Origin: Bacteroidales bacterium | GTDB taxonomy: Bacteria; Bacteroidota; Bacteroidia; Bacteroidales; UBA10428 | Direction of reading: 5' to 3' | DNA length: 64,000 bases | Assembly: GCA_016934395.1 (NCBI GenBank) | Contig: JAFGSZ010000094.1 | Location: 1-64,000, forward strand | In this document: positions 6,682 through 53,588 of the stretch, piece after piece | Position numbering within the stretch: position 1 is the first letter of the stretch | Layout: the number at the start of each line of letters is the position of its first letter | Notes under the pieces: model-generated | Database searches by the model: none | Seen by the model: only the letters and a program-made list of their open reading frames with translations | Told to the model about the DNA's origin: nothing | Program-made: the position numbers and the translations under genes

Positions 6682-9300
6682 TTATAATATATATTCTTCT
6701 GCTTTTTGAAGCGCCCTTTCAATGCCCTCCGTATTTTTTCCTCCGGCTGTGGCATAAAAAGCCTGTCCGCCGCCGCCGCCATTAATTTCTTTTGCCAACT
6801 CACGAATTATTGAACCTGCATTAAAGTTTTTTTCTTTTACCAGGTTATCTGAGATCATTACGGTGAGATGGGCTTTTTCATGAATATCGGCTCCCACCAC
6901 AAGGAATAAATTATCAATTTCGTTGCGCAACTGGTAGGCAAGGTCTTTTACCAACTCGGGAATTTCTGCGGAAATCTTTTCAGAAATATAATTTATGCCA
7001 TTCACTTTTCTTACATTTCCTTTTAAGTTGTTTTTTATCCTGCTGATTTCCTGCTGAGCAGCTTTTTCTACTTTTTTCCGGAGTTCGGAATTTTGTTCAC
7101 TTAGGGCCAATATTGATTGCCGGAGATCGCCGGGGCTATCGAGTATTTTTTCAATATCCGATAAAATTCCTAGGTGAGTGTTTATGTATTCTTCTGCTTT
7201 TTCACCGGTGTATGCCTGAATACGACGAATTCCTGCAGCAATAGATGTTTCGGAAATTATTTTGAAATATCCGATATTACCGGTGGATTGAACATGAGTC
7301 CCACCGCATAGTTCCACAGATTCCCCGAATTTGATTATTCGTACAGTATCTCCGTATTTTTCGCCAAACAATGCCATGGCACCCATCTCATTAGCCTTTG
7401 AAACGGGGACTTCTGTAAATTCCTCCAGAGGTTCATTTTCCCTTATTTTTCGATTTACAAGCTGTTCAATACTTCGCAGTTCATCGTCGGTTATTTTTTG
7501 AAAATGAGAGAAATCGAATCGAAGATAATCCGCATGTACCAGTGATCCCTTTTGTTCAACATGGTTTCCAAGTACTTTTCTAAGCGCATTATGAAGCAGA
7601 TGAGTGGCAGTATGGTTATTAGCTATGGATTGCCGGGTTATACTATCCACCACTGCATGAAACGGGGCCTGCAGATCGACAGGTAATTTTTCAGTAATAT
7701 GAATAATCAGATTATTTTCCTTTTTCGTATCAATGATAGGTATTCGTTCTTTTCCATTATCAATATAACCGGTGTCTCCCACTTGTCCGCCACTTTCGCC
7801 ATAAAACGGGGTAAAATTAAAAACAAGCTGATAATGTGTTTTTCCCTGTATGGTAATTTTTCGGTACCGGGTTATTTTAATGTCCGATTTCAGATAATGG
7901 TACCCTATAAATTCCTGAATGGCATCATCGAATAAAATAATCCAGTCTTCGGTTTCTATTTCAGATGCTTTACGGGAGCGGGTTTTTTGAGCAAGCATTT
8001 CCCGGTCAAATTCATTCAGGTCAACACTTAATTTATGTTCCCGCAGAATTAACTGGGTAAGATCCAGCGGAAATCCAAAGGTATCATAAAGTTCAAATGC
8101 TTTTTTCCCGCTTACAATTTCAAGTTTATTGTGTTGTGCATCAGTTATTATGGCATCCAATAAACGAATACCGGAGTCGAGGGTTTTTAAAAAAGAAAGC
8201 TCTTCATCCTTAATAACTTTTTCGATGAGTTGCTGCTGGCTTTTAAGTTCCGGAAAAGCATCGCCCATATTTTGAATAAGAGCGGGGAGAAGCAGGTAAA
8301 TAAACGGTTCCTTCTGATCTAAGAATGTATAATAATAGCGGATAGCCCTTCTTAATATTCGCCGGATTACATAACCTGCTTTTGCATTTGATGGCAGCTG
8401 TCCGTCTGCAATGGCAAAAGCAACAGCTCTTAAATGATCTGCCACAACCCGCATTGCAGTGTCTGCTTCAGGAATTTTGCCGTAAGGAATACCTGACTTT
8501 TCGGAAATAGTATATATTAAAGGTAAAAAAATATCCGTATCGTAATTCGAGGTTTTGCCTTGCATTACCATACATAATCTTTCAAATCCCATGCCTGTGT
8601 CTACATGTTTTTGAGACAAAACTTCCAGGTCGCCATTTGCTTTCCGGTTATATTGAATAAAAACCAGGTTCCAAATCTCAATAACCAAAGGATGGTCTTT
8701 ATTTACCAGGTTTTTTCCATCTGTTTTTTTTCTTTCTTCTAAGGAGCGCAGGTCAACATGAATTTCGGAGCATGGTCCGCAGGGACCTGTATCACCCATT
8801 TCCCAGAAATTATCTTTTTTAGAAAAAGCAAGAATTCTGTCTTCATCAAGAAATTTTTTCCAGTATTCAAAGGCTTCATTGTCTTTTTCCAATTTATCTT
8901 CATTGCTCCCTTCAAAAACAGTTGCATAAATCTGATCTTTCGAAATTTTCATTTCTTCTACCAAAAATTCCCATGCCCATGCTATGGCCTCTTTTTTGAA
9001 ATAATCACCAAACGACCAGTTTCCCAACATCTCAAACATGGTATGATGATAGGTATCATGACCAACCTCTTCCAGGTCATTATGTTTACCGGAAACCCTA
9101 AGGCATTTTTGTGTATTTGCTATTCGTTTATTTACAGCCGGGGCGTTTCCAAGAAAAATATCTTTAAACTGGTTCATCCCTGCATTTGTAAACATTAAAG
9201 TAGGATCACCTTTAACAACCATAGGGGCCGAAGAAACAATTGTGTGAGCTTTTGATGAAAAAAAATCAAGGAATTTTTGACGAACAATCTTTGAATTCAT
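6682..9300 (-). CDS. alaS: Alanyl-tRNA synthetase
   Basis: 872 residues, full length for AlaRS. The N-terminal class II catalytic domain includes the motif 1-2 region ([11 protein letters not shown], about residues 33-43) and CGPCSEIH. The tRNA-recognition domain is followed by the editing domain with HTATHLLH (about 561-568) and the CGGTHV zinc/editing motif (about 661-666). The C-terminal oligomerisation/C-Ala domain ends with the GGGGGQ loop and the final helix. It charges tRNA-Ala and clears misactivated serine and glycine. The gene diverges from the M23 peptidase genes across a 139-bp gap, an arrangement I recall as common in Bacteroidota. Confidence 0.97.
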
Positions 9301-9363
9301 GTAAACCTTTCAATTAATATGATTAAAATCTATTATCTCTTTAACAATCTTTAATTCAAATAT

Positions 9364-9395
9364 TTTGTAAAATTAATTTTTTTCTTTTAGATTTG
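9364..9395 (+). promoter_or_regulatory. Bacteroidota-type promoter for the M23 operon
   Basis: TTTG at 9364-9367, a 20-base spacer and TAGATTTG at 9388-9395 give a near-perfect match to the phylum's primary sigma consensus (TTTG, 19-20 nt, TAnnTTTG). Transcription would begin near 9401, about 40 bases before the inferred TTG start of the first peptidase gene. Confidence 0.6.
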
Positions 9396-9439
9396 TTGCA
9401 AACGGCCCGAAAGATAATATTATAACATAAATTTCACAA

Positions 9440-10396
9440 TTGGTTTCAAAAAATAAAAGATATCAATTTAGCGAGCAAAATTTAAAATTTGAGGAGCTAA
9501 AAAATACTCCAGGGCGGAAAGTAATAAACACCCTGGTTTTTCTGTTTATTACCAGTATGCTTGCTTTAGTGATTCTTGTATTTACAAAAGTTATCTTTGG
9601 CTCACCCTATGAAAGGTTACTTCAGAATAAAGTTCAGCAAATAACCGGTAAATTTTCGATATTAGAACAGCGAGTTGACTATTACCATGATATATTAACT
9701 CAAAATCATTATGCTAATGACAATTTTTATCGTGGTATTCTGGGATTAGATTCGTTGCCTGTAACCATTCGTGATGCAGGTACCGGAGGTACTGAAAAAT
9801 ATACTAAATTTGATAATCTGCAAAATGCCGAAAAAGTAAAAATTATTTCCCAGAAAATTGACATCATAAAAAACCAGCTCAGAATTCAGGAAAACTCATA
9901 TAACCTTTTATCAGACAAGGCTGAAATCAGGCTTAAACAAATGGCTCAGATTCCGGCTATTTTACCTATATCTGTTAAAGAATTAATCTTTATAAGTTCA
10001 TATTTTGGTGTTCGGCAGGATCCCTTTACCGGAAGTCAGAAAGCTCATTATGGAATTGATTATGTTGGAAAAAAAGGAACAAAAATTTACGCTACAGGTG
10101 ATGGAATTGTAACTTTATCTGAGAATTCACGTAATGGCTATGGAAATGAGATTGTTATTGATCATGGATTTGGATATAGTACCTGTTATGGTCATTTGAA
10201 GAAGATCATGGTCAATGAAGGTGAGACTGTAAAACGAGGTCAGGTTATAGGATTAATGGGCAATAGCGGACGTTCAACAGGGACCCATCTTCATTACGAG
10301 ATCAGACACAATAATAATCCGGTTAATCCGGTTTATTATTATTCAGATGACCTGACTGGGGAGGAGTACGAACAAATTGTTAAACAAAGTAACTAG
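9440..10396 (+). CDS. M23 family metallopeptidase (first of tandem pair)
   Basis: 318 residues. A short cytoplasmic N-terminus, one membrane helix (about residues 30-50) and a coiled-coil stretch (about 55-160) precede a LytM/M23 domain. The zinc-site residues are present: H.....D in KAHYGIDY (near 205) and HLH in GTHLHYE (near 286). Such proteins sit in the inner membrane facing the periplasm and either cut peptidoglycan cross-links or regulate amidases. An in-frame stop at 9428 leaves no ATG before the membrane helix, so TTG at 9440 is the probable start. It is followed 21 bases later by a paralogue with the same architecture. Confidence 0.85.
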   Translation: MVSKNKRYQFSEQNLKFEELKNTPGRKVINTLVFLFITSMLALVILVFTKVIFGSPYERLLQNKVQQITGKFSILEQRVDYYHDILTQNHYANDNFYRGILGLDSLPVTIRDAGTGGTEKYTKFDNLQNAEKVKIISQKIDIIKNQLRIQENSYNLLSDKAEIRLKQMAQIPAILPISVKELIFISSYFGVRQDPFTGSQKAHYGIDYVGKKGTKIYATGDGIVTLSENSRNGYGNEIVIDHGFGYSTCYGHLKKIMVNEGETVKRGQVIGLMGNSGRSTGTHLHYEIRHNNNPVNPVYYYSDDLTGEEYEQIVKQSN

Positions 10397-49926: not shown

Positions 49927-49934
49927 TACATTTG
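49927..49934 (+). promoter_or_regulatory. Promoter -7 element of the TPP-riboswitch transcript
   Basis: TACATTTG matches TAnnTTTG exactly. Transcription would begin at about 49940, right at the 5' edge of the TPP aptamer, which supports the assignment. The upstream box is a degenerate GTTTT sequence near 49903. Confidence 0.55.
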
Positions 49935-49939
49935 CACCA

Positions 49940-50022
49940 GTACTCTAAGGGGGTGCCTTAATATTTCGGGCTGAGATCATACCCTTAGAACCTGATCCGG
50001 GTAATTCCGGCGAAGGGAATGG
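49940..50022 (+). ncRNA. TPP riboswitch (THI element)
   Basis: The conserved aptamer parts are in order: AAGGGGGTGCC (49947-49957), CTGAGAT (49971-49977), ACCC (49981-49984), AACCTGATCCGGGTAATTCCGG (49989-50010) and GGCGAAGGGAA (50009-50019). These are the pyrimidine- and pyrophosphate-sensing helices of the thiamine pyrophosphate riboswitch. A small GCAATG/CATTGC hairpin (50025-50041) follows and may be part of the expression platform; it lacks a T-run, so control is more likely translational. It governs the TonB-dependent receptor starting at 50075, which should be repressed when TPP is plentiful. Confidence 0.95.
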
Positions 50023-50074
50023 AGGCAATGAAAATCATTGCTCGTAATTTTCATAAATTTTAAACAATACTAAA

Positions 50075-52474
50075 ATGAAGCGAGTACTTGTTATACTTGC
50101 ATTTGTTGGAGTGTATGCCAATTCTTTTTCTCAGCATTCAATATCCGGCAATGTAAGTGATACTGAAAACAGGCCTTTAATCGGGGCCAATGTAATTCTT
50201 GAAGATACCGGATATGGTTCTGTTACCGATGAAGGCGGGAATTTTCTGCTTAAAAATTTACCGGGCGGGGAATATAATCTTCGCATATCGTATGTGGGAT
50301 ATGAGACTGCTGTTGTTAAAATTATTCTTAACCAGTCTCGTGAAGTAAATGTTAAACTGGAATATTCTACAATTCTCGGAGAGGAAGTTATTGTAAAAGC
50401 AACGCGTGCCGGAGATAATACTCCTACAACATTCAGCGTAATTGAGAAGTCCAGGTTAAGTCAAAATAACCTGGGCCGGGATTTACCCTATTTATTAAGT
50501 ATGGAACCCTCTGTAGTTACAACCTCTGATGCTGGAACCGGTGTAGGGTATACAGGAATGTGGATCAGGGGCAGCAATATACAGCGGATTAATGTTACGG
50601 TGAATGGCATACCCATTAACGATCCGGAATCTCACGGAGTATTTTGGGTAAATATGCCCGATTTTGCCTCGTCAGTTGAAAGTGCCCAGTTGCAACGGGG
50701 AGTGGGAACATCAACTAACGGCGGCGGAGCTTTTGGCGCCACTATTAATTTTGAAACGGATCATTTTAATCGTGAAGCATTTGGAGAATTAAACAGTTCT
50801 GCCGGATCGTTTAATACCTGGAAAAACAGCTTACGCTTTGGTTCAGGACTTATTAACGGCCATTGGGCTGTGGAAGGACGGTTGTCAAAGATTACTTCAG
50901 ACGGGTACATCGACAGGGCATCATCCGATTTGAAATCTTTTTTTATTCAGGGAGGATATTATAGTGCGAAAACTACCCTGAAAGCAGTTGTTTTTAGTGG
51001 AAAGGAAGTAACCTACCAGGCATGGAATGGAATAGACAGTGAAACCATGAAAAACCACAGGACTTTTAATTCTGCCGGAGCTGTTTATGATGAAAACTGG
51101 AATATCACCGGATTTTATGATAATGAGACCGATAATTATCAACAGGATCATTATCAATTACATTTCTTACAAAACCTGGCGCCCGGATTTAATATGAATG
51201 CTTCATTGCATTATACGTATGGAAGAGGATATTACGAGCAGTTTTATTCAAATGAATTTCTGGCAGACTACCCGATCGGGAATCAGTATTTTGGCCTTGA
51301 TAGCATGGATACCGGAGCCGGATTTGAATATTTTTACCACGATACGGTTCAATATGCCGACATGATTGTAAGGCGCTGGCTGGAAAACGATTTTTACGGA
51401 ACTACCTTTTCATTAAATTACACAAATAATAATATCGACCTGATTTTAGGCGGCGCCTGGAACAAATATGCAAATGCCAAACATTTCGGAGAAATTATCT
51501 GGGCTGAATATACCGGGAATATGAACCTGGGGGATACTTATTATAATAATATTTCAGACAAAACAGATATTAACACATATATAAAAGTTAATTATTCGTT
51601 TTTCAACGGATTTAATGCTTTTATAGATTTACAAGTTCGCAACGTGGTGTATCTGGCTGAAGGCACTGATAAAAGCGGGGATATAATTTCTATTGATAAA
51701 AAATATACTTTTTTTAATCCCAAGGCCGGAATTAGTTATAATCTTAAAGATGTGGGATTGTTTTATTTATCTTATGCTGTGGCCAATAGGGAACCCATCC
51801 GTACAGATTTTATTGATGCCCCTAACAGTATAGTACCTCAACCCGAAAGACTTAAAGATATGGAACTTGGAATTCGTTATAAATCCGGAAATTATTTCTA
51901 TAACGCCAATGTATTTTTAATGAATTACACCAACCAACTGGTTCTTACCGGAGAGATCAATGATGTGGGTTCACCAATTCGGGCAAATGTAGGTAAAAGT
52001 GTCCGGTATGGAGTAGAATTGGATGGGGGAAAACAATTCAATGAATTATTGTCATTTCGTATGAATATTCTTTATGGCAATACTCAAACAAATTTTAAAC
52101 GGTTGGAAGATGAAGAGATAGTTAGCTATAACAAGGTTTCCTTGTCTTTTTCACCAAAAATTGTAAGTGGTGGCGAACTTATTTTTAGTCCTTTTCAGGG
52201 TTTTTCAGCAGCCTTGCTGGGTAAATATATCAGCAGACAGTATCTTGACAATACACAGAATCGAAACAAAAGTATAGATGCCTATTTTGTAAATGATCTA
52301 AGACTCGCATATACTTTAAAGCCAAAATTAATTGAACATATAACCTTTACATTTATGATAAACAATATAACTGACAGAGAATATTCTTCGAACGGATATT
52401 TATGGGGAGAAACGCCATATTATTATCCGCAGGCGGGAATAAATTTTTTAGGCGGCATTCAGGTAAGATTTTAA
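50075..52474 (+). CDS. TonB-dependent receptor, thiamine-regulated (Omr1-like)
   Basis: 799 residues. A signal peptide (MKRVLVILAFVGVYANSFSQ) is followed by a carboxypeptidase-regulatory-like domain (ISGNVSDTENRPLIGANVIL, about residues 23-42). A plug domain has MWIRGSNIQRINVTVNGIPIND (about 162-183) and QLQRGVGTSTNGGGAFGATINFET (about 209-232). A 22-strand-type barrel ends in phenylalanine (GGIQVRF). The upstream TPP riboswitch indicates thiamine, its phosphates or a precursor as ligand, as proposed for Omr1 proteins of Bacteroidota. The usual partners, PnuT permease and thiamine pyrophosphokinase, are not next to it. Confidence 0.9.
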   Translation: MKRVLVILAFVGVYANSFSQHSISGNVSDTENRPLIGANVILEDTGYGSVTDEGGNFLLKNLPGGEYNLRISYVGYETAVVKIILNQSREVNVKLEYSTILGEEVIVKATRAGDNTPTTFSVIEKSRLSQNNLGRDLPYLLSMEPSVVTTSDAGTGVGYTGMWIRGSNIQRINVTVNGIPINDPESHGVFWVNMPDFASSVESAQLQRGVGTSTNGGGAFGATINFETDHFNREAFGELNSSAGSFNTWKNSLRFGSGLINGHWAVEGRLSKITSDGYIDRASSDLKSFFIQGGYYSAKTTLKAVVFSGKEVTYQAWNGIDSETMKNHRTFNSAGAVYDENWNITGFYDNETDNYQQDHYQLHFLQNLAPGFNMNASLHYTYGRGYYEQFYSNEFLADYPIGNQYFGLDSMDTGAGFEYFYHDTVQYADMIVRRWLENDFYGTTFSLNYTNNNIDLILGGAWNKYANAKHFGEIIWAEYTGNMNLGDTYYNNISDKTDINTYIKVNYSFFNGFNAFIDLQVRNVVYLAEGTDKSGDIISIDKKYTFFNPKAGISYNLKDVGLFYLSYAVANREPIRTDFIDAPNSIVPQPERLKDMELGIRYKSGNYFYNANVFLMNYTNQLVLTGEINDVGSPIRANVGKSVRYGVELDGGKQFNELLSFRMNILYGNTQTNFKRLEDEEIVSYNKVSLSFSPKIVSGGELIFSPFQGFSAALLGKYISRQYLDNTQNRNKSIDAYFVNDLRLAYTLKPKLIEHITFTFMINNITDREYSSNGYLWGETPYYYPQAGINFLGGIQVRF

Positions 52475-52624: not shown

Positions 52625-52639
52625 TAATTTTTAGGGTTA
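52625..52639 (+). repeat. 15-bp direct repeat, left copy
   Basis: TAATTTTTAGGGTTA, identical to 53601-53615. The two copies bracket the trypsin-fold gene and its upstream terminator. Confidence 0.8.
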
Positions 52640-52640
52640 G

Positions 52641-52668
52641 ACCGGGTGCAAGACACCCGGTTTTTTTA
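52641..52668 (+). terminator. Intrinsic terminator after the TonB-dependent receptor
   Basis: ACCGGGTG (52641-52648), loop CAAGA, CACCCGGT (52654-52661), then a T-run. It lies 166 bases after the receptor stop, so the receptor mRNA has a long 3' end. It lies about 90 bases before the pseudo-protease ATG. Confidence 0.85.
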
Positions 52669-52757: not shown

Positions 52758-53588
52758 ATGATGACGTATAAACAAATTTGGCAACTGGCTAAAAATTCGG
52801 TCTGCTCTCTTCGGTTCTTTAATTCTTCAGGCATTGAAATGGCCCGGTATACGGGTTTTAAATCCGGAAATTTTATTTTTACAAGTGATCATGTGAATTG
52901 TATTAATCGTGTACATTCCGTTGAAATTAATTTTTTTGAAACTCATAGTAGTCAAACGGAAGGGGCTGTTAAAATTAGTGCAGAGAATTTCTGCAATCGT
53001 ATAATTACCATTGACGATAAAGATTTTACGGGATTTTCTTTAATTAGTACTGAAGACTTAAGATTTGAATATATTCCATCTCTAAACTTAGCAAGGCACA
53101 AAACCTATTCTGTTGGGCAATCATTAGTCGTTTTAGGATATCAGATCGATCATACTGAACTTACATTAAAAAAGGCTGTATTATCTTGTTTTACACGTTA
53201 CAAAGATTTTACCTATATTCAATTTGATGGTGTAATCGTATCAGGGAATTACGGCAGCCCGATATTTGATACCGAAACCGGTGATGTAATTGGTATTTTG
53301 AACCATTCTATTAACCGGGATAACAGGGCTTATGAGAATATGAACGAAATTATTAATTCCAATATTAAACTGCTCACACATGCTCTGGGTAAACTGAATG
53401 CTTCAGATGTGGATCCCATTCAGGTTTTAATTGCCGGACAGCACCAGATTAAACGATTATCTTCTGAAATTTATAAACAATCCACTCAAGGTATTGGATA
53501 TGCATTGGATGTTATTGATATATTACAATTATTATCCTCAAGGGGACTTGAGATATCCAATCTGAGCAGTTCATACATCGAAGTTTAA
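52758..53588 (+). CDS. Cytoplasmic trypsin-fold protein, catalytic serine replaced
   Basis: 276 residues without a signal peptide. The N-terminal 190 residues fit a trypsin-like fold with histidine 45 (FIFTSDHV), aspartate 89 (KDFTGFSLI) and the nucleophile loop SGNYGSPIF. The usual GNSGSP serine is tyrosine 165 (codon TAC at 53250-53252), so it is probably a pseudo-protease. The C-terminal 85 residues are predicted helical. The ATG is doubled (ATGATG). A perfect 15-base repeat flanks the gene and a short AACG tandem repeat lies upstream at 52682-52695. It has no operon partner. A binding or sensing role is inferred; function unknown. Confidence 0.65.
   Translation: MMTYKQIWQLAKNSVCSLRFFNSSGIEMARYTGFKSGNFIFTSDHVNCINRVHSVEINFFETHSSQTEGAVKISAENFCNRIITIDDKDFTGFSLISTEDLRFEYIPSLNLARHKTYSVGQSLVVLGYQIDHTELTLKKAVLSCFTRYKDFTYIQFDGVIVSGNYGSPIFDTETGDVIGILNHSINRDNRAYENMNEIINSNIKLLTHALGKLNASDVDPIQVLIAGQHQIKRLSSEIYKQSTQGIGYALDVIDILQLLSSRGLEISNLSSSYIEV

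Follow-up and report, generated by a model that had tools for sequence, protein, structure and literature searches.

A TonB-dependent receptor gene behind a TPP riboswitch in a Bacteroidales genome and a NadR-like kinase as candidate thiamine kinase of Bacteroidota

We analysed a stretch of 64,000 nucleotides (the window) from a Bacteroidales bacterium (assembly GCA_016934395.1, contig JAFGSZ010000094.1, positions 1 to 64,000), in which a thiamine pyrophosphate (TPP) riboswitch precedes a single receptor gene. A scan of the window against Rfam revealed one match above the gathering threshold: a TPP riboswitch aptamer (THI element, RF00059) at 49939-50035 on the forward strand, with a score of 68.9 bits (gathering threshold 54.3; E 1.8e-11). 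The match was full-length (model positions 1-105); 10 model positions were absent, in the variable P3 arm. An initial annotation, made from the sequence letters, had placed a complete aptamer at 49940 to about 50022. The TAnnTTTG element TACATTTG, which we take to be the Bacteroidota -7 promoter element, was found at 49927-49934 (+), four bases upstream of the aptamer. The gene behind the aptamer (50075-52474, +) encodes a TonB-dependent receptor of 799 aa, predicted to be of the thiamine type (Omr1/OMthi-like), with CarboxypepD_reg-like (PF13715), Plug (PF07715) and TonB barrel (PF00593) domains, the latter two over the cut-off. An intrinsic terminator, with a stem of 10 pairs (6 G-C) and a T-run, followed at 52639-52663 (+). 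The aptamer, the promoter element, the lone TonB-dependent receptor and the terminator behind it had all been proposed in the initial annotation, and each was borne out.

The same elements were examined in relatives. A TPP match was present in 97 of 118 genomes (23 from the family of the source genome, itself included, and 95 from 95 families of this order). Sixty riboswitch loci of relatives were chosen, comprising nearly all of the own family and then the strongest of the order; L038 and L045, loci of identical appearance from two genomes, were both counted. In 45 of 58 riboswitches (two were omitted as close to a contig end or repeated in their upstream sequence) and in 28 of the 32 receptor-linked ones, TAnnTTTG preceded the aptamer by no more than ~30 nt; the background frequency was 183 of 14331 33-base windows (1.3%). 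Because the motif is frequent before relatives' aptamers and rare in the background, transcription start at the edge of the aptamer is well supported. A receptor homologue (BLAST score >200) lay directly behind the aptamer in 34 of the 60 loci. In 24 of these it stood alone, in 4 the contig ended, and in 6 a PnuT-family gene followed; the order receptor, PnuT and thiamine pyrophosphokinase (TPK), said in the initial annotation to be that of many Bacteroidota, was thus represented by its transporter in those six of the 34 loci sampled from this order. The other 26 loci were mostly thiamine biosynthesis or salvage operons as judged by eye, and one ended at the aptamer. The lone riboswitch-receptor layout is an ordinary, known arrangement.

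A precedent is available in Bacteroides thetaiotaomicron. According to PMC5613172, its TonB-dependent receptor OMthi (BT2390; Omr1 elsewhere) is under a TPP riboswitch and is encoded apart from the pnuT-tnr3 operon, the same split as here, and loss of OMthi in a biosynthesis-free strain raised the thiamine need about tenfold. The likeness to OMthi is one of arrangement. The genuine aptamer, the receptor homologues behind TPP aptamers in relatives and the OMthi precedent support the proposal of a thiamine-related import receptor, and the best reading of the gene is a predicted thiamine-family importer under TPP control.

The source assembly (G000; 4.53 Mb, 155 contigs, 98.6% complete, 4.3% contamination) contained the window aptamer as its single TPP match; the further TPP riboswitches that the initial annotation suggested seeking were not found. 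The only PnuT/PnuC-family gene (PF04973, 203 bits) lay on another contig, at C143:32507-33061, as expected from the initial annotation, which had placed the inner-membrane step elsewhere in the genome. A kinase frame was located directly behind the transporter. In locus L003 the two frames span 8460-9092 and 9053-9607; they overlap by 40 bp when the first ATG of the kinase is used, and a later ATG lies beside the transporter stop. The kinase product (184 aa) matched AAA_28, with ATPase_2 below the cut-off. The implied partner TPK (PF04263) had no match in G000; the gene behind the transporter is this NadR-like kinase instead. ThiL was found at C126:73389-74375 (309.5 bits; cut-off 184). No match in G000 was obtained for the thiamine monophosphate (TMP) synthase ThiE (PF02581), or anywhere in G000 for ThiK at E 0.01. 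ThiL requires TMP. Because ThiL is present while ThiE, TPK and ThiK have no match, G000 needs either an unrecognised route from thiamine to TMP or import of TMP.

We determined the distribution of these genes in the 118 genomes. The kinase was present in 62, TPK in 20, the transporter in 87 and TMP synthase in 48; no genome had both kinase and TPK. Among the 95 genomes from 95 families, 46 had the kinase and 20 had TPK, and none had both, versus 9.7 expected (Fisher 2e-7, descent ignored). Exactly one of the two was present in 66 of the 71 genomes with a transporter (neither in 5), and none of the 24 genomes without a transporter had kinase or TPK; the p-values of these comparisons were 2e-7 or lower, again with descent ignored. 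In 54 of the 62 kinase genomes, no more than 1.5 kb separated kinase and transporter. Seventy genomes had no TMP synthase; 51 of them had the kinase and 6 had TPK. ThiK gave no match in 117 of the 118 genomes, the remaining match having an E-value of 0.0085. These counts leave out kinase matches in G004 (8e-5) and G101 (1.5e-10, a full-length NadR) but include fragmentary kinase matches in G017, G057, G073 and G096. They also leave out ten TMP-TENI matches with E-values of 3e-9 or above, of which that in G059 exceeds the Pfam cut-off.

Genome G085 illustrates the alternation. Its transporter, RlmL and the next gene are in the same order as in G000 (48, 51 and 49% identical, respectively), and 46 bases without a kinase separate transporter and RlmL. 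G085 had no kinase match, and its TPK is encoded elsewhere in the genome. An S41 peptidase gene lies upstream of the transporter in G000 and was not found at the corresponding place in G085.

A tree of 152 transporters was constructed by a quick method and rooted on Escherichia coli PnuC. This root sequence, a single orphan and five of the six transporters partnered with full-length NadR fell outside a main group of 145 rows (SH-aLRT 97). A group of 67 rows (SH-aLRT 97) contained all 15 TPK-partnered transporters together with 43 kinase-partnered ones, among them the G000 transporter, and the TPK-partnered transporters nested among the kinase-partnered ones. By its place in the tree, the predicted G000 transporter is of the PnuT kind. 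Since TPK- and kinase-partnered rows form one group, both kinases share one transporter lineage; since the TPK-partnered rows are nested, the kinase partnership looks older than the TPK partnership.

Kinase loci outside this order were then considered for linkage to thiamine genes: the best 80 of 572 named kinase loci, and 32 phylum loci, which were picked from a phylum-wide set of 95 genomes so as to represent many genera. The choice of G323 (L281) was made with knowledge of a strong TPP match ~17 kb off; that match (486-583) is an aptamer different from one in the pre-receptor position. In 4 of the 80 named loci (L190, L197, L199, L205) and in 13 of the 32 phylum loci (L251, L255, L280-L282, L284-L291), the kinase had a co-directional receptor homologue downstream, mostly within 2.4 kb; in L280 and L290 the distance was 7.2 kb and the receptor was cut by the end of the stretch. 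Four more short loci (L212, L213, L233, L236) had a receptor after the kinase. All linked receptors were on the kinase strand and none on the opposite one. Eight receptors encoded downstream of the NadR-like kinase in other Bacteroidota shared 42-49% identity with the window receptor. A TPP aptamer before the receptor scored above the Rfam gathering threshold in L190, L197, L205, L251, L255 and L289. Matches short of that threshold, with E 6e-7 to 3e-3, were obtained in L286, L282, L291 and L287 (35-47 bits) and in L199 and L284 (39-50 bits). Of the 17 linked named and phylum loci, 12 have a confirmed or likely aptamer; the aptamer search covered all of the 17 but L280. The flavobacterial gene order was, with variations, small protein, transporter, kinase, DUF4301, aptamer and receptor. 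Six of seven flavobacterial small proteins ahead of the transporter matched Thiamine_BP (PF01910) with E 3e-7 to 2e-4, and that of L199 had no PF01910 match. Two, just upstream of the PnuT-family gene, exceeded the Pfam cut-off: L287:9251-9511 (-) and L285:8820-9080 (-).

The kinase itself consists of a ribosylnicotinamide-kinase-type domain (AAA_28) and has no nicotinamide mononucleotide (NMN) adenylyltransferase domain; its score against the NadR model TIGR01526 was 94 bits (cut-off 341). Among solved structures, it was nearest to NadR by sequence. In 143 kinases, position 94 was K in 124 and position 96 was W in 125 (Y in 17), whereas seven NadR domains had Q in 4 and Y in 6 at the same positions. 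The K94/W96 difference would fit a different substrate but is no proof of one. A fold was predicted for the homologue L130 from 40 rows with a confidence (pLDDT) of 94.7; a single-sequence model was dropped at pLDDT 58. The L130 fold is that of the NadR kinase domain: NadR occupied the top five rows (Z 20-23, root-mean-square deviation 2.1-2.6 over 170-180 residues), followed by thymidylate and deoxynucleoside kinases (Z 15-17). Similarity of fold does not by itself establish the substrate.

Because the kinase is exclusive with TPK, tied to the transporter, the partner among which TPK-partnered transporters nest, and linked to receptors and aptamers, it appears the best candidate for the missing step from thiamine to TMP. 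We consider it probable, judging from gene content and arrangement, that the window supplies the regulated step at the outer membrane in a thiamine salvage route in which the NadR-like kinase is the thiamine kinase that replaces TPK. It also seems moderately likely that a thiamine kinase has gone unrecognised in the single-domain NadR-like kinase by PnuT, that this kinase is the earlier partner of PnuT in Bacteroidota and gave way to TPK in some lineages, and that most members of this order dependent on vitamin B1 make TPP through the kinase and ThiL. When TPP is scarce, the receptor would be made and thiamine would enter the periplasm. PnuT, which carries no riboswitch in G000, would pass it across the inner membrane; the kinase would phosphorylate it to TMP and so trap it, and ThiL would make the TPP that shuts the riboswitch. 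The riboswitch might act on translation or on transcription. In B. thetaiotaomicron, the mRNA levels of the transporters showed no significant response to thiamine (PMC5613172), and an mRNA test might therefore fail even if the switch acts on translation.

Several observations weigh against these proposals. The exclusion of kinase and TPK covers this order, in which none of the 60 riboswitch loci contained the kinase; the linkage of kinase and receptor comes from other Bacteroidota. No TPP riboswitch accompanies the transporter and kinase genes of G000. In both sequence and fold, the kinase is nearest to enzymes that phosphorylate nicotinamide riboside, and the sixth NadR-partnered transporter (L237) branched with PnuT, next to L197 at the base of the 145-row group. 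Thirteen of the 21 linked loci came from one family, f101; the others were from f102 (two), f105, f106 and the four named loci, perhaps eight lineages in all. No pre-receptor aptamer was found in L285 even at E 0.01, and those of L281, L288 and L290 were unconfirmed at the gathering threshold, the only one applied to them. Thirteen of the 70 genomes without TMP synthase had neither kinase nor TPK, three of them bearing a transporter; they are either incomplete or use a third route. Finally, no transporter was directly beside the kinase in 20 of the 80 named and 9 of the 32 phylum loci, many of which extend several kb upstream. Because the kinase has no adjacent transporter in these loci, part of the family may use other transporters or substrates. 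Loci without a PnuT-family neighbour were L245, L246 and L248 (f105) and named loci such as L174 and L194. The thirteen genomes with none of TMP synthase, kinase and TPK were G003, G012, G013, G018, G019, G024, G025, G039, G065, G075, G078, G079 and G088, with the transporter in G025, G065 and G078.

The main competing explanation is that the C143 pair is an ordinary PnuC with a nicotinamide riboside kinase, serving NAD salvage, and that other proteins transport and phosphorylate thiamine. Pfam and NCBIfam name the transporter NMN_transporter/PnuC, above the NCBIfam cut-off, and the closest relatives of the kinase are NadR kinase domains. We nevertheless regard this explanation as unlikely: the transporter groups with TPK-partnered PnuT and apart from most NadR-partnered PnuC, the kinase and TPK never co-occurred in the 118 genomes, and the kinase is linked to TPP-riboswitch receptors and Thiamine_BP-like genes. 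In addition, G015, G303, G166 and G263 each carry a full-length NadR and its PnuC as well as a separate kinase (without a transporter adjoining the kinase in the last three), and G101 has such a NadR and PnuC alongside PnuT-TPK.

Import of TMP for ThiL by the receptor and an inner-membrane carrier, with no need for a thiamine kinase, would fit the presence of ThiL and the lack of TMP synthase, TPK and ThiK matches in G000. It would explain neither the pairing of transporter and kinase nor why this pair excludes TPK, and we know of no such TMP carrier in Bacteroidota; we judge it improbable. Still less probable is that TPK or ThiE is present and was missed in assembly gaps or through divergence. 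The fragmentation, completeness and contamination of the assembly leave room for such a loss, but TPK had no match in all 23 genomes of the own family and in 75 of the 95 other families, and the search matched 7 of 14 control genomes, including Bacteroides ihuae. The least credible of these alternatives, with nothing found in its favour, is a relic aptamer ahead of a receptor for compounds other than thiamine, its phosphates or precursors, given a full-length aptamer well above its gathering threshold and an aptamer-receptor pairing kept in more than half of the relatives' loci and in other Bacteroidota. The predicted thiamine salvage route through the NadR-like kinase remains our preferred explanation.

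The proposed system differs from known ones at defined points. In B. thetaiotaomicron the pnuT-tnr3 operon is itself under a TPP riboswitch and the strain makes its own thiamine (PMC5613172), whereas the G000 PnuT-family gene has no riboswitch, TMP synthase has no match there, and a NadR-like kinase follows the transporter. The PnuT-TPK (ThiN/Tnr3) pair of Bacteroidota shares its transporter group with the G000 pair, and in both the kinase gene is directly behind the transporter; the former uses TPK (PF04263), the latter a NadR-like AAA_28 kinase plus ThiL. TPK converts thiamine to TPP in one step. The PnuC-NadR pair of nicotinamide riboside salvage has the transporter family and kinase fold in common with the G000 pair. 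It differs in the adenylyltransferase domain that the G000 kinase lacks, in transporter grouping (five of six) and in having mostly Q/Y instead of K94/W96. E. coli ThiK phosphorylates thiamine to TMP, which ThiL then uses. The reaction proposed for the NadR-like kinase is the same, with no ThiK homologue matched in G000. The literature searched, which lay mostly outside subscription journals and included PMC5613172, PMC7221760, PMC6593275, PMC12442306 and PMC10881298, gave no link between a NadR-like kinase and thiamine; this is no proof of absence.

The riboswitch and receptor are ordinary, and the analysis suggests that the new element is the kinase, as candidate for the missing thiamine kinase of Bacteroidota. 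If this is correct, one missing enzyme would be filled in for many Bacteroidota that need external B1, and these would cease to look incapable of using thiamine in genome-based predictions. PnuC-NadR pairs (B3) would also be separated from PnuT-kinase pairs (B1) that are named alike in databases, and a case of enzyme replacement next to one conserved transporter would be documented.

In flavobacterial loci, DUF4301 (PF14134) was fused to the kinase in L281:16187-18301 (-) and lay directly behind it in L284:8465-10006 (+), both Pfam-confirmed; frame length indicated the same fusion in L286:7017-9137 (-) and L288:6884-8983 (-). A thiamine-related role of DUF4301 would follow from this fusion and adjacency. 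A Flavo-1 sRNA match (RF01705, 48 bits) was found at L291:4252-4326 (+), a few kb from the transporter-kinase-receptor cluster.

In the window, no transcription terminator was found between the aptamer and the receptor start codon. A short hairpin at 50024-50042 (+; 8-bp stem, tail CGTAATTTTC) was rejected as a terminator because it has no T-run; it is possibly part of the expression platform. Comparable hairpins follow the aptamer in some relatives, e.g. L046, L047, L050, L067 and L091, as judged by eye. An 11-codon frame (50028-50063), preceded by GGAGG at the aptamer's 3' border and ending 11 bases ahead of the receptor start codon, was rejected as a leader peptide. Among 33 receptor leaders of relatives, 4 had a short frame near this position and 4 a Shine-Dalgarno-like stretch; since short frames are so few, the 11-codon frame is probably due to chance. 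Free folding of the leader did not recover the aptamer, and the result was not used. Comparison of the receptor with solved relatives was likewise dropped, its profile matches being other TonB receptors, none of them thiamine-named. The gene after the terminator (52758-53588) is trypsin-like, and by eye the start of such a gene was also seen behind the receptor in L039 and L051, which are from genomes of the same family.

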